From: a virus | DNA: 28,967 bases | Direction: 5' to 3' (one strand) | IMG/VR virus record: IMGVR_UViG_3300008262_000787 | Location: 1-28,967 of that record | Shown: in pieces, positions 4,958-26,171 of the stretch | How the letters are laid out: every line of letters begins with the position of its first letter | How positions within the stretch are numbered: the first letter of the stretch is position 1 | Made by a program: the position numbers and the translations under genes | Notes under the pieces: generated by a model | What the model was told of the DNA's origin: nothing | The model's input: the letters and a program-made list of their open reading frames with translations, nothing else | Databases searched by the model: none

Positions 4958-6367
4958 ATGCGTATTGAACAAGCCATTCTGTCTAATCTTATTCATAATG
5001 AGGAGTATTGCCGTAAGGTAATTCCTTACCTCAAGAAAGAATACTTTGCTGATCGCAAGGATTCGACAATTGCTGGTCTGTTGATTTCTTTCTTTGAGAA
5101 ATACAACAAACCTGCATCCTCGGAGATTATCGCCATTGAGGTGACTAATCTTCCAGGGTTGACTGATAAAGAAGTTCCAGAATTGCATGAGTATGCAAAA
5201 TCTCTTGTGTGCGATGTGATGACCAATCCTGATTGGTTGCTAGAGAATACTGAGAAGTTTTGTAAAGACCGAGCAGTATACAATGCGATTCTGGCTTCGA
5301 TTAAAATTATTGATGGTAAAGATAAGGTGCACAACCAAGATGCGATTCCATCCATCTTGTCTGATGCGCTTGCCGTAAGTTTTGATAGTCACATTGGTCA
5401 CGATTACTTGGATGATGCAGATGAACGTTTCGAATTCTATCATAGAATCGAAGAAAAGGTTGCATTCGATCTTGAGATGTTTAACCTTATCACTAAGGGT
5501 GGCTTGTCAAAGAAAACTCTAAACATTGCACTTGCTGGTACTGGTGTTGGTAAGTCATTGTTCATGTGTCACGTATCTGCATCTACACTGATGCAAGGTA
5601 AGAATGTTCTTTACATTACCATGGAAATGGCTGAAGAACGTATTGCTGAACGTATCGATGCAAACCTCTTGAACCTTACCATGGATGAGTTGAAGGTTAT
5701 CGATAAAGATATCTTTGATTCTAGAATGGAAAAGCTGTCCAAGAAAACTCAAGGCAAGCTGATCGTTAAAGAATACCCAACTGCATCTGCCCATGCTGGT
5801 CACTTCCGTGCACTGCTAGAAGAATTAAAGATGAAGCGTGACTTCCGTCCAGACATTATCATGATTGACTATCTCAATATCTGTTCTTCTCAGCGAGTCA
5901 AGCAAGGTGGCTCCGTAAACTCTTATACATATATTAAGTCGATTGCTGAAGAGTTACGTGGTCTTGCTGTAGAATATAATGTACCGATCTTGTCTGCAAC
6001 CCAAACTACTCGTAGTGGTTTTACGAATAGCGATCCAGGGTTGGAAGATACGTCAGAATCTTTTGGTTTGCCAGCTACAGCAGACTTTATGTTTGCATTG
6101 GTTTCCAATGAAGAACTTGAACAACTAAATCAAATCATTGTTAAACAATTGAAGAATCGTTACAATGATCCTGGATTTTACAAACGATTCGTTGTTGGTA
6201 TTGATCGTTCAAAGATGAAGTTATATGATGTAGAAGCCTCTGCTCAGCAGAACTTGTCAGACGCTGGTCAATCTTACAGTATGAAAGAAGATAAACCTCT
6301 CTTCGATCAAAGTGAGTTTGGCAAACGACTACATAGTAGTACTGGGTTCAGTGATTTCAAATTTTAA
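4958..6367 (+). CDS. 41: Replicative DNA helicase, T4 gp41 (DnaB-like)
   Basis: A 469-aa hexameric 5'-3' replicative helicase (T4 gp41 is 475 aa). The N-terminal helical domain is followed by the RecA-like motor with Walker A GTGVGKS at residues 194-200 and the MEMAEERIAERI segment typical of DnaB motif H1a. Walker B is DIIMIDYLN, and a SATQTTR loop is followed by the DSESFGLPATADF type of motif. It unwinds the fork and recruits gp61 primase, which is encoded about 18 kb downstream rather than next to it. The gene is preceded by GAAGGG and by a sigma70-like promoter within the upstream gene. Confidence 0.93.
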   Translation: MRIEQAILSNLIHNEEYCRKVIPYLKKEYFADRKDSTIAGLLISFFEKYNKPASSEIIAIEVTNLPGLTDKEVPELHEYAKSLVCDVMTNPDWLLENTEKFCKDRAVYNAILASIKIIDGKDKVHNQDAIPSILSDALAVSFDSHIGHDYLDDADERFEFYHRIEEKVAFDLEMFNLITKGGLSKKTLNIALAGTGVGKSLFMCHVSASTLMQGKNVLYITMEMAEERIAERIDANLLNLTMDELKVIDKDIFDSRMEKLSKKTQGKLIVKEYPTASAHAGHFRALLEELKMKRDFRPDIIMIDYLNICSSQRVKQGGSVNSYTYIKSIAEELRGLAVEYNVPILSATQTTRSGFTNSDPGLEDTSESFGLPATADFMFALVSNEELEQLNQIIVKQLKNRYNDPGFYKRFVVGIDRSKMKLYDVEASAQQNLSDAGQSYSMKEDKPLFDQSEFGKRLHSSTGFSDFKF

Positions 6368-6376
6368 GGAGTAGAT

Positions 6377-7678
6377 ATGGTTAAGGTTATTGTTGCCGAT
6401 AGAAAATATAACAGCGAACATTTGCTAGGGCAGTTTGTTGATGAGAGTCACTATGACTTGTTGGTTGAAGAAGATTGTGATGTTTACATGCCACTGCCTG
6501 TTGGCGAAGATGAAACATATCCAGAAGATCGTATTGTCTTTAAGTTTCGCAAGAACTACTTCTCCAAGGAACAACAAGACGCAGCATACGCTGGCTTGCG
6601 CGAAGCTGCAATTGAAACGCAGAATCGTGGGTTGGCTGCTGGTCCACGTGCAGACAAACTTGGTAATCGCGAGTGGGTTACTGAGTATGAGTATGAAATT
6701 GTAGACTACTTCTTGAAGCCTACTGAGAATCTTTTTGGTGAAGATCCAATCGAAGAAATTCGTAAGAAGTATGCCAATAAAAAAGACTCAATCTCCAATC
6801 GTGCCAACGTTTGGTCTATTGAACGTGTCAAGAAAGAGCAGTTCAAGTTTGAAGACTGGGTCAACAAAACTAAACTGTTGTCGCAAGAAGAACAGCAAGC
6901 GAGTGCGTCACATGTAGCTGAGAAGTTAATCTGCGCTACCACTTATGCTAACTCTGTAAACTCTGGTATTGCTGGATGGTTCGATCGTTATCCACGTATT
7001 CCTTATGGTCGTGCAACTGCATACACCACAAAGAACCCAGAGAAGTTTGCCATGGCATTCCCATTCCTACAGAATCTTGCCAAAGGTTTTAAGGATCTTC
7101 TTCCATGGAGATACAACAACCAAATGGAAGCTGCCAAGAAACTTGATCCTGCATTCTTGGTTCCTGGAACTCCATTCACCACAGTAACTGTTAACAAGAC
7201 ATTCCGTACAGCTGCACACTATGATGCTGGTGACTTGACTTCTGGTTTGTCTAACCTGTTGACATTGTCCAACGATGGTAACTACTCTGGTGGATATCTA
7301 ATTGCTCCAGAATATCGTGTCGCAGTTAACGTTCGTCCAGGTGACTTGCTGTTGATTAACAACCACGAAGTTATGCATGGTAACACACCTATTGTTTGCC
7401 AAGAAGGTTCTGAGCGTATTTCCCTAGTTGTTTACTTTAGAGAGAAAATGCTAGAGTTGGGAACTAAAGAATACGAAGAATGCCGTTTCGAGTTTGTTGA
7501 GACTCGCAGACTGAACAGAGAACACAAAGAGTGGCGTCCACTGTGGAATGGTGTTTCCCCTGGAATGTGGGACAGTGAAGAGTGGTATGACTTCTGCGAA
7601 AAGAAACTTGGTCGTGATACTCTTGAAAAGTACCACCCTGAATCTGTAAAAGCAAACTCACTAGAAGGATTCTTTTAA
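6377..7678 (+). CDS. TET/JBP-family 2OG-Fe(II) nucleobase dioxygenase
   Basis: A 433-aa protein whose second half matches the TET/JBP dioxygenase fold. Iron ligands are H281 and D283 (HYD within AAHYDAGDL) and H334 (HEVMHGN); R347 is placed to bind 2-oxoglutarate. The surrounding strands GGYLIAPEY and VRPGDLLLI are typical of phage TET/JBP proteins. The first 190 or so residues are a separate region with no motif I recognise. Known family members hydroxylate 5-methylcytosine (TET) or thymine (JBP) in DNA. No methyltransferase is seen here, whereas a 5-hydroxymethyl-dU kinase-like gene lies downstream, so thymine in phage DNA is the favoured substrate (inference). Strong AAGGAG lies before the ATG, and the stop overlaps the next start. 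Confidence 0.8.
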   Translation: MVKVIVADRKYNSEHLLGQFVDESHYDLLVEEDCDVYMPLPVGEDETYPEDRIVFKFRKNYFSKEQQDAAYAGLREAAIETQNRGLAAGPRADKLGNREWVTEYEYEIVDYFLKPTENLFGEDPIEEIRKKYANKKDSISNRANVWSIERVKKEQFKFEDWVNKTKLLSQEEQQASASHVAEKLICATTYANSVNSGIAGWFDRYPRIPYGRATAYTTKNPEKFAMAFPFLQNLAKGFKDLLPWRYNNQMEAAKKLDPAFLVPGTPFTTVTVNKTFRTAAHYDAGDLTSGLSNLLTLSNDGNYSGGYLIAPEYRVAVNVRPGDLLLINNHEVMHGNTPIVCQEGSERISLVVYFREKMLELGTKEYEECRFEFVETRRLNREHKEWRPLWNGVSPGMWDSEEWYDFCEKKLGRDTLEKYHPESVKANSLEGFF

Positions 7679-8376
7679 TGTGTTCTATTATTGGTGCGAT
7701 CATCCGTAACCCTACGAGTGATCACTTTGCTATGATACGACGTGTGTTCCATGAGTCAAAGATTCGTGGAATGCATGCTACAGGAATGTCTATATTATTT
7801 CAAAATAAAATTATGACGTTCAAAGAGCCTGTCCCAGCAGACAGGTTTGTTCATTTGGACTCTTTGGAGGAGATGGTAAATGATGACGGTACTTTATACC
7901 TTATTGGTCATTGTCGTTACAGCACTAGCGATCTGGAATATAATCAACCCTTAGCAAACACAGAATGTTCTATCGTTCACAATGGTGTTGTCACTCAAGA
8001 ACTACCTGAGAACTGGAAGACAATGTTTCCAGAATACGTTTGTGAAACTAAAAACGATAGTGAATTGATTTTGCACTCACCTTCACCACTAGAAGAATTC
8101 CCTGATGCTTCTATTGCTGCGTGTGAGTTGTGGGCTGATAGAAAGCTAATTACATATCGTAATGGTAAGCGTCCATTATATTTGACTTCTATGCTAGATG
8201 GATGTATAATTACTTCTACGTCTAATATTGCAAAACGTGCTGGTGTCGAGGGTGTTACTATGGAAGTTCCCATGAACACTTATATGACTATTGATTCTAG
8301 TCTTACGTTCGATATGCAAATAGTAAAGACAAACAAACGAGACTTACAAAGGGTTGAACATGAATTATCCGTCTAA
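7678..8376 (+). CDS. Class II glutamine amidotransferase (Ntn hydrolase)
   Basis: A 232-aa stand-alone glutaminase domain. It begins MCSIIG, so removal of Met exposes Cys2 as the N-terminal nucleophile of class II amidotransferases. The GHCRYSTSD segment and the VHNGVV segment match the glutamine-binding and oxyanion regions of GlmS/PurF-type domains. It should release ammonia from glutamine and pass it to an acceptor enzyme. No synthase domain is fused, so the acceptor must be another protein; the amidoligase whose start overlaps this gene's end is the natural partner. The ATG overlaps the dioxygenase stop (TAATG), and a promoter for downstream genes lies within it at 8182-8210. Confidence 0.85.
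   Translation: MCSIIGAIIRNPTSDHFAMIRRVFHESKIRGMHATGMSILFQNKIMTFKEPVPADRFVHLDSLEEMVNDDGTLYLIGHCRYSTSDLEYNQPLANTECSIVHNGVVTQELPENWKTMFPEYVCETKNDSELILHSPSPLEEFPDASIAACELWADRKLITYRNGKRPLYLTSMLDGCIITSTSNIAKRAGVEGVTMEVPMNTYMTIDSSLTFDMQIVKTNKRDLQRVEHELSV
8182..8210 (+). promoter_or_regulatory. Sigma70-like promoter inside the amidotransferase gene
   Basis: TTGACT at 8182-8187, a 17-nt spacer and TATAAT at 8205-8210. Start of transcription would be near 8217, about 140 bases before the amidoligase gene. Hexamers and spacer are identical to those of the promoter at 9742-9770. Confidence 0.55.
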
Positions 8377-9235
8377 CAAATACACATGGGGTTACGAGAT
8401 TGAATGGGGTGACGTAGATCGTAGACTTGTCGTTCCAGAACATCTTGGTAAATGGGAATACGCTGAAACTGATATTGTAAACATTCATGAACCTTTTAAG
8501 TATATTGCTTGCGATCCTCTTGGTACTGACCCTTACATGGGTGGTGAGATTAACACTAAGCCAACTAATACTTGGGCAGAGCAAGTGGACCGAGTCATGG
8601 AGATCCATAGCTTCTTTGTGGATGCTGGGAATGCTCCTTCTGCTTCTTGCGTGAACCATGGTCACTTGCATGTATTCGTTCCTGGTCTCAAGGACGATGT
8701 AGCTTCACTCAAGAAGTTAATCTCTTACATCAAAGCCAATCAAGCCGATACCATTGAAGCGTGTTATGGCTTCTATGAAGCATCACAAATGAAATCATGC
8801 AAGGGTGCTAAGATGTATCTCAAGTATGACGGCGGACGAGAAATGCCAGAATATATGTGTGACAATATCATCAATCTGGCAACAGACTTTGAACACTTTA
8901 TCAAGCTACACGCTGCTGGCAAAGATGGTGTGTCAATGGGTCGTCCTTTCCGATACGCAATCAATACATACTGCATGAAGCATACTGGTACTATCGAGTT
9001 CCGTTGTTTCCGTTCAACAACAAAGCGTGAAGAGATGGAAGCTCAGTTCCGTTTTGCAGAGAAGTTTATCGAAGCTGCATTGAACGATGGACCAAGCGTC
9101 AAAGAAATCCTTGCTGCAGATAACTACAAGTTCCCTCCATTCGTATGGGATCTGAATGAGTATGTTGGTTGGGAAAAGACAAAGTGGGATAAAGAACGTG
9201 GTAACAAACAACGTGAATACCTTGCAGTTGCGTAA
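8360..9235 (+). CDS. Amidoligase (glutamine synthetase-like fold, Amidoligase_2 type)
   Basis: A 291-aa protein with the hallmarks of the amidoligase family related to glutamine synthetase/gamma-glutamylcysteine ligase. These are GYEIEW at residues 11-16, GGEINTKPT, the HGHLHVFVPG segment and TIEFRCFRSTT near the end. Such enzymes form amide bonds from a carboxylate and an amine or ammonia using ATP. The ATG at 8360 is preferred over the TTG at 8354 because AAGGG sits 6 nt before it. It overlaps the end of the amidotransferase gene, which could supply ammonia, and is followed by an overlapping acetyltransferase. The substrate is unknown; from context it may be a group attached to DNA or its free precursor (inference). 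Confidence 0.75.
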   Translation: MNYPSNKYTWGYEIEWGDVDRRLVVPEHLGKWEYAETDIVNIHEPFKYIACDPLGTDPYMGGEINTKPTNTWAEQVDRVMEIHSFFVDAGNAPSASCVNHGHLHVFVPGLKDDVASLKKLISYIKANQADTIEACYGFYEASQMKSCKGAKMYLKYDGGREMPEYMCDNIINLATDFEHFIKLHAAGKDGVSMGRPFRYAINTYCMKHTGTIEFRCFRSTTKREEMEAQFRFAEKFIEAALNDGPSVKEILAADNYKFPPFVWDLNEYVGWEKTKWDKERGNKQREYLAVA

Positions 9236-9764
9236 GTGCACCAGAGAAGAATTCGTGTCGGCTATCACTGAAGATAAAGCTGACGGATTCGCCAAGACGT
9301 TTAGAGCCAAAGCAGATATGCAAGAGCAATGGGATGAATGTCTTGGAGCATTTGATTCGTCTGGAGAATTGATGGGTGCAATCATTACCACTCTTGGAAA
9401 GACTAATCCTAGAGTGGCAAACCTACAGCTGCTACATACGTTTAACAAGCATAGACGTAAAGGTGTAGCAAAAGAACTGACTCTAGCCTCCTACGACGAT
9501 ATAGTGGCACGAGGTGCTGTATATTTCCGAGTATCTGCTGAACCAGGTGCTGTGGCGTTTTACGAATCCTTAGGTTTTAGATTCTGGGGCAAACAGAAAT
9601 CAGGTTGTTCCCTAAGCATTTTCAAGGTAAACGGTAGGCTAGAGGATGGAATCTACGACGAAAATGACCCTACAGTTCGTAAGGCATTATATTCAGGTCG
9701 CAAGGGAAGTCTAGCCTCGTCCTACAGTTCGCAAAAAAGTGTTGACTTAAATCAGTTTCTGTAG
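9213..9764 (+). CDS. GNAT-family N-acetyltransferase
   Basis: A GNAT acyltransferase. The acetyl-CoA binding motif A is HRRKGVAKELT, followed by the strand YFRVSAEPGAVAFYESLGF typical of motif B. It would transfer an acetyl group from acetyl-CoA to an amine. The start is uncertain. The frame is open from an ATG at 9156, but that would overlap the amidoligase by 80 bases. GTG 9213 and TTG 9228 give a normal GNAT N-terminus (LRKCTREEF). I chose 9213 without a strong ribosome binding site. About 45 residues after the GNAT core form a Ser/Lys-rich tail. The gene end overlaps the promoter at 9742. In context it may acylate an amine produced in the modification pathway, or act on a host target. Confidence 0.75.
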   Translation: MNTLQLRKCTREEFVSAITEDKADGFAKTFRAKADMQEQWDECLGAFDSSGELMGAIITTLGKTNPRVANLQLLHTFNKHRRKGVAKELTLASYDDIVARGAVYFRVSAEPGAVAFYESLGFRFWGKQKSGCSLSIFKVNGRLEDGIYDENDPTVRKALYSGRKGSLASSYSSQKSVDLNQFL

Positions 9765-9770
9765 TATAAT
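9742..9770 (+). promoter_or_regulatory. Sigma70-like promoter for the GIY-YIG/ParB-transferase-kinase genes
   Basis: TTGACT at 9742-9747, a 17-nt spacer and TATAAT at 9765-9770, in the only clear gap of the modification island. Transcription would start near 9777, leaving a leader of about 26 nt before the ATG at 9803. Confidence 0.75.
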
Positions 9771-9802
9771 AGTATTATTGACACTGAGAAAGTAAACTTA
9801 TT

Positions 9803-10834
9803 ATGAAGTATGAAGCGATCGTTTACGGCTGGCGCAATATCATTGATGGTAAAATGTATATTGGTTTCCACAAAACCGACGAAGAATTCGACGGTTATGT
9901 GACATCCTCAGAAGATGAAGAACTTCAGTACGCATGGGCGAATGGTCATATGCGTCGCAGTATCATCTATCGTGGCACTCAGTCTATCGCCATTACTCTC
10001 GAGAATTACCTTCTCAAATCAATCAAAGCGAATAAGAACCCAGACTTCTACAATAAGTCTGTTGGTGGTGGTGTAGGTTGCGTCAAAGACTTCTCTAATC
10101 TGACTGAGTCTATTAAGCTGGTTGGTGAAAACTGGATCAAGGGTATTGAACCTGAAGAGAATCTAGACTACGTTGACGTTGCGGACCAAGACGTGACTGA
10201 AGCTATCAAAGCACGTCTGGCTGCTGAGCACTACATTGAGTATCAAGCACCAACGAAAGAAATCTTCGCACTACCAAAGAACCAAATTCGGTTCAATACG
10301 ATTGAACCTGAGCACCTTGAAGACATTAAAGACTTAATGCGTGACGACCCACTAAAAGCACGTCGCAATATCTCTCCAATAATTATCGTTGTGAATGAGA
10401 AGGGTGAGAAAATGATTCTGGACGGCAACCATACCATCACAGCAGCGTATGAAGTGAATTGGCCAAACGTCCCAGTCATCTACATTAACAGTTCCGAGTT
10501 TCTGAACAAGCAAGCTAACTACGATGACTTTGGCTTGCTAATGAATCACCAAGAGAAGAAAAAGAAGCCTAACGACAAAGGTGCTTTGAAGCGTGGTATT
10601 CTGAACCTTCTTCAAACTACTGGCTTGTCGATTGATTCCACCACGTTCAAGAACACGGCTTTGCGTAATCTGGTGAAGTATTATTCTAAGAATGCTATCG
10701 CCCATAACATCAAGTCTGTGGAAAAGATGCTCCGTGAAGAGCAGGAAGTATTGAAAAATAACTTCAAGCGTTACACAAAGAAAGAGTTGGAAACGATTGT
10801 TGGAGACTTGGAAGCTGCTAGTAGGTATTATTAG
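9803..10834 (+). CDS. GIY-YIG-like nuclease domain fused to a ParB-like domain
   Basis: A 343-aa two-domain protein. Residues 1-92 resemble a GIY-YIG nuclease: VYGW at 7-10, MYIGFHKT at 18-25, arginines at 51-52 and E67 as the probable metal-binding Glu. Residues about 155-235 form a ParB-like domain with the signature DGNHTITAAY (DGNH at 207-210), which in ParB-fold proteins binds nucleotides or contributes to nuclease activity. The C-terminal 110 residues are lysine-rich and helical. It is the first gene after a strong promoter and precedes the transferase and kinase genes. ParB-like proteins recur in predicted phage base-modification operons, but its role here (recognition, cleavage or DNA loading) is open. 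Self-spread as a homing nuclease is another possibility. Confidence 0.65.
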   Translation: MKYEAIVYGWRNIIDGKMYIGFHKTDEEFDGYVTSSEDEELQYAWANGHMRRSIIYRGTQSIAITLENYLLKSIKANKNPDFYNKSVGGGVGCVKDFSNLTESIKLVGENWIKGIEPEENLDYVDVADQDVTEAIKARLAAEHYIEYQAPTKEIFALPKNQIRFNTIEPEHLEDIKDLMRDDPLKARRNISPIIIVVNEKGEKMILDGNHTITAAYEVNWPNVPVIYINSSEFLNKQANYDDFGLLMNHQEKKKKPNDKGALKRGILNLLQTTGLSIDSTTFKNTALRNLVKYYSKNAIAHNIKSVEKMLREEQEVLKNNFKRYTKKELETIVGDLEAASRYY

Positions 10835-10853
10835 TATCTCCTCTGACCGATGC

Positions 10854-11051
10854 ATGAATGATGGATTGGGTGCGGTACTTAACAAGATGGGTGGTATGGA
10901 TGTCACTGAAGGTATTATCGTTATCTCTCACCGTAACATGACTGAGTATAAACTCCGCAAGGCACACACTGATAAATTGAAGAAGGCAATGAAACCCATC
11001 AATGCCAAAATTACAATCAACGAACTACCTGCCTTTATTAAGACGAAGTAA
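10854..11051 (+). CDS. Small protein of unknown function before the transferase gene
   Basis: A 65-aa product if translation starts at ATG 10854, or up to 84 aa from TTG 10797 inside the upstream gene; neither has a convincing ribosome binding site. The central sequence MDVTEGIIVISHRNMTEYKLRKAH is followed by a basic segment and a short helical tail. No family is recognised. Its stop overlaps the next ATG (TAATG), which argues that it is translated and coupled to the transferase gene. It may be an accessory subunit, but nothing in the sequence shows this. Confidence 0.6.
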   Translation: MNDGLGAVLNKMGGMDVTEGIIVISHRNMTEYKLRKAHTDKLKKAMKPINAKITINELPAFIKTK

Positions 11052-12070
11052 TGGATTATAGAATAAAAGAAAATCGACGTGAAGCATTCATCCGCTGGTA
11101 CGCATGGTCATTAAAATACGATGACTGTGACCCAGCGGTTTGGTGCACCAACTATATCAACAAACGCTATGAGCATAACGACGAGCAACGACTATGGTTG
11201 TGCTGGCTCTATGGCAATACATATCACTTACCAACTGCATGGGTTCTGATGAACGAATTCCCTGACTTTGAGTTGGCAACAGTTGATCGTATGGAGCAGT
11301 GGAACACTACCAACTACAAACGACTACGTTATCAAACTGATACAAAGTGGAACAAAGGTCACTTGCCTACCATGTTTGCTTCATATCAGAAGTTTATTGG
11401 TGGCAAATCTCAACGTGAAGTTATGGAGAAACATTATGGCGACAACGAGGAAAAATCATTTGATGTTTTGTGGGAGAGTGTTAAGTCTCAGCTTCACAAA
11501 TTTGGTCGTTATTCTACTTGGTTTTATCTTCAGCATCTTAAGCATACCGCTGGTATTCGGATTCGCCCTACTAGCCTCATGCTTGATGACTATGATGGGT
11601 CTCGCTCTCACCGTAATGGGTTGCATCTCGCCCTCGGGGAAGATGACAAGTACGATCAGAAACTGGACAGAGCAGATTATGTATCTCTTGAAGTCCAAGC
11701 AAAAGAAATACTCGAAGAAACCAGAAGAAGATTTCCAGAGCTAGGGAATCAAGTTGACTTCTTTACAATGGAAACGTGCCTGTGTTCATTCAAGAAGATC
11801 TTTCGAGAAAAGCATGGTCGTTATCTTGGCTATTATCTTGATCGTCAAGCTGAAGAGATTCAGCAATGCGAAAAAGATGGATGGTACGGTATTGATTGGG
11901 ATGTCTTGTGGCAATCTAGAAATGAAACTATCGACCTGCGTTTAGACCACAAGCGTGGTATTAACAAAGAAAAGTTTCCTAACTTTATTAGATCAGGTAG
12001 AATAGAAAACTTAGACTGGCTTTTCGATGATGAAGAGCCTCAACATATTGGATTGGAGATGTTTGGATGA
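11051..12070 (+). CDS. Probable amino acid:DNA transferase (aGPT-pyrophosphorylase family)
   Basis: A 339-aa soluble protein. The C-terminal part, with METCLCSFKK, RYLGYYLDRQAEEI and a WDVLWQSR segment, resembles proteins first predicted as alpha-glutamyl/putrescinyl-thymine pyrophosphorylases. These were later characterised in hypermodified phages as amino acid:DNA transferases. They displace the activating phosphate on 5-hydroxymethyl-dU in DNA with an amino acid such as glycine. The call is from memory of family patterns and is moderate on sequence alone. It is strengthened by the next gene, an overlapping P-loop protein like the 5-hydroxymethyl-dU DNA kinases that make the activated base. 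Start ATG overlaps the upstream stop, and its own stop overlaps the kinase start (ATGA). Confidence 0.55.
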   Translation: MDYRIKENRREAFIRWYAWSLKYDDCDPAVWCTNYINKRYEHNDEQRLWLCWLYGNTYHLPTAWVLMNEFPDFELATVDRMEQWNTTNYKRLRYQTDTKWNKGHLPTMFASYQKFIGGKSQREVMEKHYGDNEEKSFDVLWESVKSQLHKFGRYSTWFYLQHLKHTAGIRIRPTSLMLDDYDGSRSHRNGLHLALGEDDKYDQKLDRADYVSLEVQAKEILEETRRRFPELGNQVDFFTMETCLCSFKKIFREKHGRYLGYYLDRQAEEIQQCEKDGWYGIDWDVLWQSRNETIDLRLDHKRGINKEKFPNFIRSGRIENLDWLFDDEEPQHIGLEMFG

Positions 12071-12606
12071 AAAAGATTATTGCTGTTGGTGGTCAACCAG
12101 GAACTGGTAAAACTACTCTGTTCCGTAAGTTTATCGATAACTACGACTGGTTCAAATGTGAACCAAAGAAGTTACTCAATGCCATGTACTGCGAGGAGAT
12201 CGATACTTACATCTTAGGTAAGTATGAAGATGGCGAAACCTTTGCAGGAACAGATCGTCTTTCAATGGCAGTCCAACCTGCAGCGCAAGAGTTTGTAGCT
12301 GAAACCAAGTCCAACGTATTATTCGAAGGTGATAGAATCTTCAATCAGTCGTTCTTAGAGTTTTGTATGGCACTGCCCAACAGAGATCTTCAGGTTGTAT
12401 ATCTCAAGGTTCCAGACACCATGTTAAAGGAACGATATGCCGAACGTGGCTCCGATCAGTCGGAGGTTTTCCTAAAAGGTAGAGCAACTAAATATAGTAA
12501 TCTGTTATCAAATTTTGAACTGATGTCCTATATTACTGAGTTTGCAAACACTAACTTAGAGGAGCAAGCGAAGGTTCTAGCGTTTCTGGATAAACATCTA
12601 GCATAG
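12067..12606 (+). CDS. P-loop kinase, probable 5-hydroxymethyl-dU DNA kinase
   Basis: A 179-aa P-loop kinase with Walker A GQPGTGKT at residues 9-16. GTDRLSMAVQP at 61-71 and the Walker B-like strand VLFEGDR at 84-90 follow. The GTDRLSM.VQP signature matches kinases predicted and later shown to phosphorylate 5-hydroxymethyl-dU in phage DNA, which primes it for amino acid addition. It lacks the helical domain some relatives carry. It overlaps the end of the putative transferase gene by four bases (ATGA), so the two would be made together. A nucleotide kinase acting on free substrate is the main alternative, but the size and signature fit the DNA kinase group better. Confidence 0.65.
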   Translation: MKKIIAVGGQPGTGKTTLFRKFIDNYDWFKCEPKKLLNAMYCEEIDTYILGKYEDGETFAGTDRLSMAVQPAAQEFVAETKSNVLFEGDRIFNQSFLEFCMALPNRDLQVVYLKVPDTMLKERYAERGSDQSEVFLKGRATKYSNLLSNFELMSYITEFANTNLEEQAKVLAFLDKHLA

Positions 12607-12628: not shown

Positions 12629-13336
12629 ATGAAATTCCTAGAAGAAGCTAATTTCAACTGGATGGATATGCTCAATTTCTATGAGCCTCCATTTAGAGCT
12701 AAATTCATCCCCGCAAAAGTTTGGAGAGACCTAGATCGTTACAGAAATGACGAAAAGGGTCTCTCAAATTATTTTAAGAAGTGGCGCACTCGACTAGAGT
12801 TTACGCCTGAGTTATCAAGAGCCAAAGTATACGAAAAGTATATTGCAGTTGGCGGAGAATACGATCCTGATGCACGTCAATGTATTCTACAAATTCGAAC
12901 CATAGACTACGATATATTCCCATTCACTCCTGCTACATGGGACAGGTTTAAGTACAAACTTATACAGGTTCTTATGCATGAGATCATTCACTTTATGCAG
13001 TATGATCGTCGTGGAGATGAATGGAGCAACTATGTAGTTCCATATAAAAAGATTGGCAAGCAACAGGTAGATAATGAGCGAGAATATCTATCTGGTTTCG
13101 ACGAGATTCAAGCCTATGCCCATTGCGTATGGCTAGACTACAGATCGTTCCGTCCGAATGTTGATATAGATACTCTGTTGGCTCGCTCCAACGTGAGACA
13201 CGATTCCAATACCCTACGATATTTCCTAAAAACATTCAACTACGATTACCGTAACAACGAAGCTATTCCTAAGATTATTCAGCAAGTGGGTAAGTGGGAA
13301 AGAAAGTATCACCGTGTACTGAAGAATCCTAAATAA
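12629..13336 (+). CDS. Zincin-like metalloprotease-type protein (HEIIH)
   Basis: A 235-aa protein with HEIIH at residues 117-121, the zinc-binding and catalytic motif of zincin peptidases. A third ligand candidate is E159 in FDEIQAYAH, 38 residues downstream. The N-terminal third is charged and without motif. No signal peptide or membrane segment is visible, so it should act in the cytoplasm or be packaged. It begins FLEEANFNW and has no capsid-targeting sequence. It sits between the modification island and the internal head protein genes, and its substrate is unknown. The peptidase activity is inferred only from HExxH and the distal Glu. Confidence 0.65.
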   Translation: MKFLEEANFNWMDMLNFYEPPFRAKFIPAKVWRDLDRYRNDEKGLSNYFKKWRTRLEFTPELSRAKVYEKYIAVGGEYDPDARQCILQIRTIDYDIFPFTPATWDRFKYKLIQVLMHEIIHFMQYDRRGDEWSNYVVPYKKIGKQQVDNEREYLSGFDEIQAYAHCVWLDYRSFRPNVDIDTLLARSNVRHDSNTLRYFLKTFNYDYRNNEAIPKIIQQVGKWERKYHRVLKNPK

Positions 13337-24471: not shown

Positions 24472-25491
24472 ATGCTTTACATTGACACAAAATTTGCAGG
24501 TTATGTTGGCACAAGGCTACGTAACTTTAAGAAAAAGAAAGACTATCTTTGGAACTACTCTTGCCCAGTATGCGGTGACAGTTCCAAAAATAAGATCAAG
24601 GCACGTGGGTATATCTACAGGTCCAAGGCTGATCTTTTTTGCAAGTGCCACAACTGCGGTTATAGCACAAATCTTGGTAATCTTATTAAATATGTAGATA
24701 CAAAACTTTATGATGAATATGTACTGGAACGCTACAAAGCTGGTGCTTCCAAGTATAGTGATCACAAAGAGGTTGAACCCTTACTCCCAAAGACAGAATC
24801 AGTTCTATTAGAAGATGACATCTTAAGTCCTGTAAAGCGACTTGATCTTCTAGATGAAACTCATCCTGCAGTTCAATATGTTATTGGTCGAAAGATTCCC
24901 AAAGAACAATGGAACCTTTTGTATTTTGCTCCTAAATTTAAGAAGTTTGTTAACTCTGTCACTCCAAAGTTTCAAGAACCCTTTGTTGATGAACATCCAC
25001 GTATGATCATACCGATGTTTACTCCAGCAGGTAAATGCTTTGCGTTTCAGGGTAGATCATACGGAGCAGAAGAACCTAAGTATTACACTATCAAGGTAGA
25101 TGAGACTCAAGAAAAGATTTTTGGCTTAGAACGTGTAGATTATAGTAAAAGAATTTACATCGTTGAAGGTCCGATTGATTCACTCTTTCTACCCAACGCA
25201 TTGGCTGTATCGGGCGCAAGTTTTGATACACCAACTATTCGTCAACTACTGACGAATGCCACCATTGTCATGGACAATGAACCAAGAAACAAAGAAATTG
25301 TAAAACAAATGGGTAAGTACATTGACGCTGGTTTCAGTGTCTGTATGTATCCCGACAGCGTTGTAGAAAAAGACATTAATGATATGATACTCTCTGGTAG
25401 GTCTCAAAGAGAGATTGTAGAACTAATAAATACGAATACCTTTACTGGTATAGAAGCAACTCTGCGATATTCAACATGGAGAAAAGTATGA
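24472..25491 (+). CDS. 61: DNA primase, T4 gp61-like
   Basis: A 339-aa primase (T4 gp61 is 342 aa). The N-terminal zinc ribbon has C31-P-V-C34 and later C57, C59 and C62 (FCKCHNCG). The TOPRIM core shows E232-G-P-I-D236 and D268 in IVMDNEP. It makes RNA primers for lagging-strand synthesis together with gp41. The frame extends upstream to 24427, but that would include the promoter, so ATG 24472 is used. The gene is separated from the helicase by about 18 kb of modification, head and lysis genes. Its stop overlaps the thyX start (ATGA). Confidence 0.9.
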   Translation: MLYIDTKFAGYVGTRLRNFKKKKDYLWNYSCPVCGDSSKNKIKARGYIYRSKADLFCKCHNCGYSTNLGNLIKYVDTKLYDEYVLERYKAGASKYSDHKEVEPLLPKTESVLLEDDILSPVKRLDLLDETHPAVQYVIGRKIPKEQWNLLYFAPKFKKFVNSVTPKFQEPFVDEHPRMIIPMFTPAGKCFAFQGRSYGAEEPKYYTIKVDETQEKIFGLERVDYSKRIYIVEGPIDSLFLPNALAVSGASFDTPTIRQLLTNATIVMDNEPRNKEIVKQMGKYIDAGFSVCMYPDSVVEKDINDMILSGRSQREIVELINTNTFTGIEATLRYSTWRKV

Positions 25492-26171
25492 AAGTTAGGA
25501 TGATTAGTTATAGCAAGCCCTCTCGTGAGATGTATGACGAAGGTTTGCTTGATGTGCAAGAGTTAATTGCTTTCTGTGCTCGCGTATCGAATCCAAGCAA
25601 TCAGTTTAATACTGAGACCTCGGAAAAACTCATCAAGTATTTGATCAACAACCAACACTGGTCACCGCTAGAAATGGTAAGTGCATGCCTAGAGATTGAA
25701 ACAACTCGTGACATTGCTCGCCAAATTCTACGCCATCGTTCTTTTGCCTTCCAGGAATTCTCACAACGTTACGCTGATCCAACAAAGGATCTACATTTTG
25801 AAGTACGTGAGGCTAGATTCCAGGATATGAAGAATCGACAAAACAGCGTTGAAATTGATAATACAGATGAAGCGCAAAGGCTGCTTGCTATTGAATGGGA
25901 ACGTGCGCAGAAACGTGTAATCTTTGCTGCTGAAAGAGAATACAAGTGGGCAATCGCAAATGGTATTGCCAAAGAACAGGCTCGTGCTGTATTGCCTGAA
26001 GGTTTGACTGCATCGCGTATGTATATGAATGGCACTCTACGTTCATGGATTCATTTCATTCAGGTTCGCTCTGGTAATGGTACACAAAAAGAAAACATTC
26101 TAATTGCACGTGAGTGTGCAAAAGTAATCGCGGAGATCTTCCCAATGGTTGAAGGTCTAGTATCAAAATAA
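25488..26171 (+). CDS. thyX: Flavin-dependent thymidylate synthase
   Basis: A 227-aa ThyX, which converts dUMP to dTMP using FAD, NADPH and methylene-tetrahydrofolate. The ThyX signature RHRSFAFQEFSQRY is at residues 82-95, and the region with QARAVLPEGLTASRMYMNGTLRSW carries the second conserved block. The start ATG 25488 overlaps the primase stop and has GGAG upstream; the ATG at 25476 would add four residues. As a dTMP producer it indicates that DNA contains thymine at synthesis. This matters for the TET/JBP-first modification model, because no dUMP hydroxymethylase is seen in the window. Confidence 0.93.
   Translation: MKVRMISYSKPSREMYDEGLLDVQELIAFCARVSNPSNQFNTETSEKLIKYLINNQHWSPLEMVSACLEIETTRDIARQILRHRSFAFQEFSQRYADPTKDLHFEVREARFQDMKNRQNSVEIDNTDEAQRLLAIEWERAQKRVIFAAEREYKWAIANGIAKEQARAVLPEGLTASRMYMNGTLRSWIHFIQVRSGNGTQKENILIARECAKVIAEIFPMVEGLVSK

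Follow-up and report, generated by a model that had tools for sequence, protein, structure and literature searches.

The demonstrated phage route to hypermodified thymine makes 5-hydroxymethyl-deoxyuridine monophosphate (5-hydroxymethyl-dUMP) before replication. Whether a phage can begin instead from thymine that is already part of its DNA is the question raised by a T4-like virus record, IMG/VR IMGVR_UViG_3300008262_000787, whose 28,967 bases were analysed as a whole (hereafter the window). At 6377-12606 it carries a cassette that joins a dioxygenase of the TET/JBP family to a glutaminase, an amidoligase-like protein, an acetyltransferase, an amino acid:DNA transferase (ADDT) and a P-loop kinase. 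The initial annotation had read this cassette as a route from thymine through 5-hydroxymethyluracil and phosphorylation to amino addition and amidation or acetylation. Sequence comparison and structure models support that interpretation, and the cassette probably encodes a post-replicative thymine hypermodification pathway in which oxidation comes first. Its genes are the following (loci from other viruses are numbered L and genomes G throughout).

6377..7678, + strand: TET/JBP-family 2-oxoglutarate (2OG)-Fe(II) dioxygenase, 433 amino acids (aa), proposed thymine-DNA hydroxylase (Tet_JBP PF12851, 2.6e-25)
7678..8376, + strand: class II (N-terminal Cys) glutamine amidotransferase (GAT) domain without synthase domain, here called glutaminase (GATase_6 PF13522, 4e-7)
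8354..9235, + strand: amidoligase-like protein (glutamine-synthetase-fold COOH-NH2 ligase); start at TTG 8354 or ATG 8360
9156..9764, + strand: GNAT acetyltransferase (PF13673, 1.8e-10); start codon uncertain, 80-base overlap with the preceding gene
9803..10834, + strand: GIY-YIG plus ParB-like protein, N-terminal part (phrog_314 homing endonuclease and phrog_8071 ParB, both ~2e-7)
10797..11051, + strand: C-terminal piece of the GIY-YIG/ParB protein in another frame (continuous frame in L003 and L011)
11051..12070, + strand: ADDT, also named the aGPT-PPlase2 family (PF18724, 2.1e-23)
12067..12606, + strand: P-loop kinase, Ploopntkinase3, proposed 5-hydroxymethyl-pyrimidine DNA kinase (PF18751, 2e-10)

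All of the open reading frames in the initial annotation were found on the plus strand where it had placed them, tightly packed. The existence of the cassette and most of its family assignments stood; a separate gene for a "small unknown" and the assignment of the kinase to the 5-hydroxymethyl-dU DNA kinase (HMUDK) family did not. The TET/JBP dioxygenase (89 bits against PF12851, cut-off 34.9), the class II amidotransferase (30.5 bits against PF13522, cut-off 27), the GNAT (41.3 bits against PF13673, cut-off 23.6) and the ADDT (83.7 bits against PF18724, cut-off 26.2) all score above the curated Pfam cut-offs. The protein that begins at 11051 belongs to the transferase family and the one that begins at 12067 to a P-loop kinase family found elsewhere beside TET and ADDT, which passes the sequence-based check proposed in the initial annotation; the latter is a P-loop kinase as had been called, but its family is PF18751 (40.9 bits, cut-off 27) and not the characterised HMUDK family (PF18723). 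The amidoligase is a weaker call, with a fold in its favour and a Pfam score of its own below the cut-off of Amidoligase_2 (PF12224; E 0.015, 15.6 bits, cut-off 22). PF12224 is matched by 11 of 14 members of this amidoligase family (best 9e-5), and near the top of the structure matches for its model (predicted local distance difference test score, pLDDT, 67) there are only glutamine-synthetase-fold COOH-NH2 ligases, with weak E values (4e-3 or weaker); these low-significance matches include GshAB, YbdK, gamma-GCS and GS.

The cassette is conserved and under purifying selection. Between the window and a sister phage, dN/dS is 0.036 for the TET gene, 0.136 for the glutaminase, 0.057 for the amidoligase, 0.137 for the GNAT, 0.080 for the ADDT and 0.046 for the kinase, and 0.025-0.045 for the comparison genes (helicase, UvsX and ThyX). 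Because six cassette genes are retained at low dN/dS in the complete genome of that sister, the cassette is not a chance assembly.

Conserved residues of the enzymes are likewise retained. The iron- and 2OG-binding residues of the dioxygenase (H281, D283, H334 and R347) are invariant in an alignment of 26 relatives, and its AlphaFold model (mean pLDDT 77) is closest to TET2, NgTET1, CMD1 and CcTet (Z 18.6-16.6). The top 16 structure matches are all DNA-acting TET-family enzymes and ALKBH3 comes next (Z 12.8), such that the modelled fold is of the TET type and not that of AlkB or another 2OG oxygenase. In the glutaminase, Cys2, R80, N102-G103 and D127 are invariant among 18 relatives. PF18724 also has members in phages M6, ViI, phiW-14 and Ag3, and 12 ADDT residues, including E241, C245 and K248, are invariant across these four phages, Caulobacter phage Cr30 and the window family. 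The P-loop of the kinase is intact, with a conserved Walker A motif GGxPGTGKTT (GGQPGTGKTT in the window) and a conserved FEGDR motif. PDB profile searches with the ADDT and the kinase gave no matches. A small protein of ~130 aa and no known family (S131) often lies between the ADDT and kinase genes (L037:8340-8735 and further loci), and some Ploopntkinase3 homologues carry the label 'terminase small subunit'. GenBank labels the TET/JBP genes of phages DLP6 (L082), Cr30 (L083) and S-CBWM1 (L085) 'SNF2 DNA repair protein'; the Cr30 protein showed no SNF2 match, and a scan with it as query gave nothing beyond Cr30 itself.

The initial annotation had seen no dUMP hydroxymethylase, and the window alone is too short to show that a gene is absent genome-wide. 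The sister locus (L004) lies in a 168,097-base contig (G001) that begins and ends with the same 127 bases, the pattern expected when a circularly permuted genome is complete; it shares ~84-92% DNA identity with the window over aligned blocks and carries the TET (96%), ADDT (94%), kinase (97%) and ThyX (98%) genes. Profile searches over G001 gave no thymidylate-synthase-fold protein (PF00303) and hence no dUMP hydroxymethylase-type enzyme, no C5-cytosine methyltransferase (PF00145) and no HMUDK_hel (PF18723). Since the same PF00303 search detects the hydroxymethylases of M6, ViI, phiW-14 and Ag3 at 50-66 bits, the negative for G001 is informative. A second candidate genome, G002 (127 kb), was set aside; it lacks both a terminal repeat and a ThyX match and is apparently incomplete, so that for the group of the window itself the main genome-wide negatives come from G001 only.

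Among complete genomes with an ADDT, TET and Ploopntkinase3 stand in the place of hydroxymethylase and HMUDK. M6, ViI, phiW-14 and Ag3 combine a PF00303 hydroxymethylase, a PF18723 HMUDK and an ADDT without PF18751, and a search for TET in M6, ViI and phiW-14 found none. G001, Cr30, VioletZ and LittleMunchkin combine an ADDT with a TET and a Ploopntkinase3-type kinase, without PF00145. The sole PF00303 match in Cr30 (373 bits) is a canonical thymidylate synthase according to NCBIfam equivalogs, and neither a hydroxymethylase nor a C5-methyltransferase was found in VioletZ and LittleMunchkin.

Gene neighbourhoods were compared in two sets of IMG/VR loci, 80 found from TET and 80 found from ADDT, with some loci or contigs in both. 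The slot behind TET is occupied by the GAT...ADDT...kinase cassette in 59 of the 80 TET loci, many of them short contigs that show the first cassette genes only, and by an alternative set in the other 21; no locus has both and none has neither. In 6 loci the alternative is a GT4-like glycosyltransferase, usually accompanied by a cytidylyltransferase; in 5 it is TAGT, a TET-associated glycosyltransferase; and in 10 it is a 335-aa protein (for example L013:7777-8784). Searches of Pfam, NCBIfam, PHROG, PDB sequences and phages gave no match for this last protein, and its resemblance to a GT-B glycosyltransferase is a visual impression only, so a recognised glycosyltransferase is present in only 11 of the 21. 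On the TET tree the cassette type changes six times, at least five of them on well-supported branches, which is the safer count as near relatives are not independent samples. Where the ADDT-found loci leave room, TET lies upstream in 42/42, GAT upstream in 67/67 and the kinase downstream in 40/40, and neither an alternative cassette nor a C5-methyltransferase was seen in these 80 loci. The simplest reading of the exchange is that TET makes a common intermediate that either branch could use. In phage C48C1 (L084:11938-15385) TET is followed by a protein without family assignment and then by a UDP-galactopyranose mutase, perhaps another sugar branch. A small second 2OG-Fe(II) oxygenase gene (PF13759) lies directly behind TET in L013 (7184-7777), L015, L058, L061 and L064, with both cassette types represented.

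We infer all of the chemistry, the identity of the substrate base included, and the protection that the product would give from what was observed, namely gene content, families, active-site residues, co-occurrence, replacement and exchange. ThyX would supply thymidine monophosphate (dTMP), and the DNA would be copied with ordinary thymine. The dioxygenase would then act on some of the thymine in DNA to give 5-hydroxymethyluracil, the reaction of kinetoplastid JBP, after which the Ploopntkinase3 enzyme would phosphorylate the hydroxymethyl group and the ADDT would replace the phosphate with an amino nucleophile, either an amino acid or ammonia derived from the glutaminase. The amidoligase, the GNAT or both could amidate or acetylate the added group, and the modified product may shield the phage DNA against host nucleases. 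Iyer et al. are said to have proposed in 2013 that hydroxymethylpyrimidines made by TET/JBP enzymes are starting points for further modification. We further propose that the glutaminase is the core partner of the ADDT and that the amidoligase and the GNAT are optional tailoring enzymes. Variants of this last stage appear in other loci: B12-binding radical-SAM genes lie inside the cassette in L069 (12870-16354), where two of them separate the ADDT and kinase genes, and in L062, L064, L068, L074 and L080, and a low-molecular-weight phosphotyrosine-phosphatase-like gene (PF01451) lies between the amidoligase and ADDT genes in L021 (4905-5327), L020, L024, L025 and L031. Radical-SAM enzymes are reportedly tailors in thymidine hypermodification (Lee et al. 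in 2022), and both the radical-SAM genes of L069 and the phosphatase gene of L021 appear to show further tailoring variants.

The substrate of the oxygenase is probably thymine in DNA. Thymine is favoured because a methyltransferase is unneeded, because ThyX supplies dTMP, and because phages with the ADDT family have hypermodified thymine (PMC6449724, PMC5977210). The presence of ThyX also speaks for the incorporation of thymine itself when the DNA is made; a search of the literature on Cr30 found nothing on its DNA bases, and a published sentence on digestion of DLP6 DNA is garbled and was set aside. The competing cytosine route, in which TET would oxidise 5-methylcytosine (5mC) that comes from the host or from a phage enzyme not recognised here, with elaboration of the resulting 5-hydroxymethylcytosine by the kinase and transferase, is in our view unlikely, though it has precedents. 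Cytosine-acting phage TETs have reportedly been shown experimentally (by Burke et al. in 2021), and a second T4-like TET lineage, reached through Methylophilales phage Melnitz (L107:3457-7537; L149-L219), joins a C5-methyltransferase, a Tet_JBP protein and a related kinase. That lineage has the methyltransferase directly upstream of TET in 58/58 loci with room, retains a Ploopntkinase3-like kinase, often downstream, in 19 of the 42 loci with room for it and has no ADDT; it is likely the cytosine counterpart of the same logic. In contrast, a methyltransferase match occurs in 0/80 of the TET loci of the window lineage and in 0/80 of the ADDT loci, PF00145 is absent from five complete genomes with the window TET lineage (G001, DLP6, Cr30, C48C1 and S-CBWM1) and from VioletZ and LittleMunchkin, and thymine is the modified base in the ADDT-bearing phages whose modification has been measured. 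Two family-level features nevertheless weigh against a thymine-specific pathway. The TET residue eight positions after the 2OG-binding Arg (R+8), which is Arg in 84/84 window-family proteins, Asp in 57/57 readable methyltransferase-linked TETs and His in TET2, separates the two phage lineages cleanly and was considered as a signature for thymine versus 5mC; CcTet, crystallised with 5mC DNA, also has Arg there, so that R+8 is not diagnostic of the substrate. Ploopntkinase3 is found near a C5-methyltransferase and TET in phages of the Melnitz type, and in phage Banjo (L108:1-567), whose genome has neither TET nor ADDT, it lies by itself next to a terminase gene; the kinase family is therefore not specific for hydroxymethyluracil. 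Oxidation of nucleotides (dTMP) or RNA in place of DNA has an analogue in the 2OG oxygenases that act on free thymine, but we consider it the least probable of the alternatives, given that the 16 best matches of the TET model are DNA-acting enzymes and that the kinase step in the studied thymine-hypermodified phages acts on DNA (PMC6449724).

What the glutaminase contributes divides the remaining readings. A sub-variant of the oxidation-first pathway, which we hold only tentatively, has the ammonia channelled to the ADDT to give 5-aminomethyl-deoxyuridine, which the GNAT or the amidoligase would acylate. The glutaminase accompanies the ADDT without exception where there is room and is as invariant as TET, and some loci without the amidoligase have a different GNAT in the order GAT-GNAT213-ADDT-kinase. 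With the glutaminase kept in these loci and no ligase seen there to use the ammonia, ammonia may enter at the ADDT step itself. However, characterised members of the ADDT family reportedly install amino acids (Lee et al. in 2022), and the glutaminase could instead work with a ligase that went unrecognised, or hydrolyse glutamine after its transfer. A separation into two unrelated modules, with TET alone making 5-hydroxymethyluracil and a phage protein or a cell-surface metabolite as the target of the glutaminase, amidoligase and GNAT, would fit amidoligase-glutaminase-GNAT sets elsewhere, which Iyer et al. are said to have predicted in 2009 to act in peptide or surface modification. We regard it as very improbable, as the glutaminase co-occurs strictly with the ADDT and the kinase and the whole block is exchanged behind TET. 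Returning to the oxidation-first pathway, its boldest form is a modular system in which one conserved viral TET makes 5-hydroxymethyluracil and the lineage repeatedly swaps a sugar branch against a kinase-ADDT-glutaminase branch that uses ammonia to give acylated 5-aminomethyl-deoxyuridine, an undescribed base series; this form is possible but doubtful.

The slot has fixed borders, and the dTMP source lies further along the window.

4958..6367, + strand: DnaB-like (gp41-type) replicative helicase, fixed left flank of the slot (phrog_19, 9e-124)
12629..13336, + strand: co-travelling protein with an HEIIH (HExxH) motif, read from the sequence
25476..26171, + strand: ThyX, dTMP source (TIGR02170, 1.6e-42)

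The helicase lies ~1.4 kb upstream of TET in every locus that covers that stretch. The HEIIH protein is the conserved right-hand neighbour, present behind both alternative cassettes; searches of Pfam, PHROG and NCBIfam gave no match for it. The GIY-YIG/ParB gene within the cassette is an accessory, since only 4/80 TET loci have it and the complete sister genome lacks it. What had been listed as a "small unknown" at 10797-11051 is no separate gene: in L003, which is near-identical to the window, and in L011 it shares one open frame with the GIY-YIG/ParB gene, and the window copy (9803-11051) is therefore frame-broken, either by sequencing error or by mutation.

We know of no bench demonstration of a viral TET/JBP enzyme oxidising thymine in DNA to feed hypermodification. 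If the proposal is true, starting with oxidation could let a phage modify chosen thymines and leave its nucleotide pool unreplaced, and the exchange of cassettes behind one oxygenase suggests how phages alter their DNA coat while the first step stays. TET, ADDT and kinase genes are present in cultured phages, Cr30 (host Caulobacter crescentus CB15) and VioletZ (host Mycobacterium smegmatis mc2 155).

Several known systems share parts of this design. The thymidine hypermodification systems of M6, ViI and phiW-14 have in common with the window a PF18724 ADDT with the same invariant residues, a preceding DNA kinase and tailoring enzymes, but use a dUMP hydroxymethylase and HMUDK, both of which the window group lacks, with TET and Ploopntkinase3 in their place. 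Cr30 is T4-like, has homologues of the TET (46%), ADDT (29%) and kinase (36.5%) and is without an M6-type hydroxymethylase or a C5-methyltransferase; unlike in the window, its genes are scattered over ~9 kb, with an additional TAGT-like glycosyltransferase and a canonical thymidylate synthase. Phage cytosine hypermodification by C5-methyltransferase plus TET resembles the proposed pathway in its TET-made hydroxymethyl handle, tailoring and related kinase, and differs in the methyltransferase beside TET. The CmoX/CmoY carboxymethylcytosine system also extends a base handle by ATP-dependent amide ligation, and some of its members are thought to use glutamine-derived ammonia (PMC12783734), but its handle comes from a C5-methyltransferase homologue with carboxy-SAM, a family absent in the window group. 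Kinetoplastid base J (JBP1/2 plus a glucosyltransferase) likewise oxidises thymine in DNA and then tailors the hydroxymethyl group; it is eukaryotic and restricted to glucosylation, whereas the window has the amino branch and sister phages have glycosyltransferase variants. The ParB-TET-ADDT-kinase operons of the actinophages Tonitrus, VioletZ and LittleMunchkin share the three enzyme families and a ParB protein. The initial annotation had thought the full combination possibly undescribed, which is too strong, since a ParB, TET-like, aGPT-PPlase2 and kinase set was named a possible thymidine hypermodification system in a 2025 genome note on Rhodococcus phage Tonitrus (PMC11955845). The actinophage operons differ in their remote sequences, small genomes and at most five genes, with no glutaminase, amidoligase or GNAT recognised, and exchange with glycosylation is not reported for them, unlike the window lineage. 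As far as we have checked, what is new is the genome-wide absence of hydroxymethylase, HMUDK and C5-methyltransferase alongside the cassette, a T4-like form that includes glutaminase, amidoligase and GNAT, and the recurrent swapping of cassettes behind a single TET.

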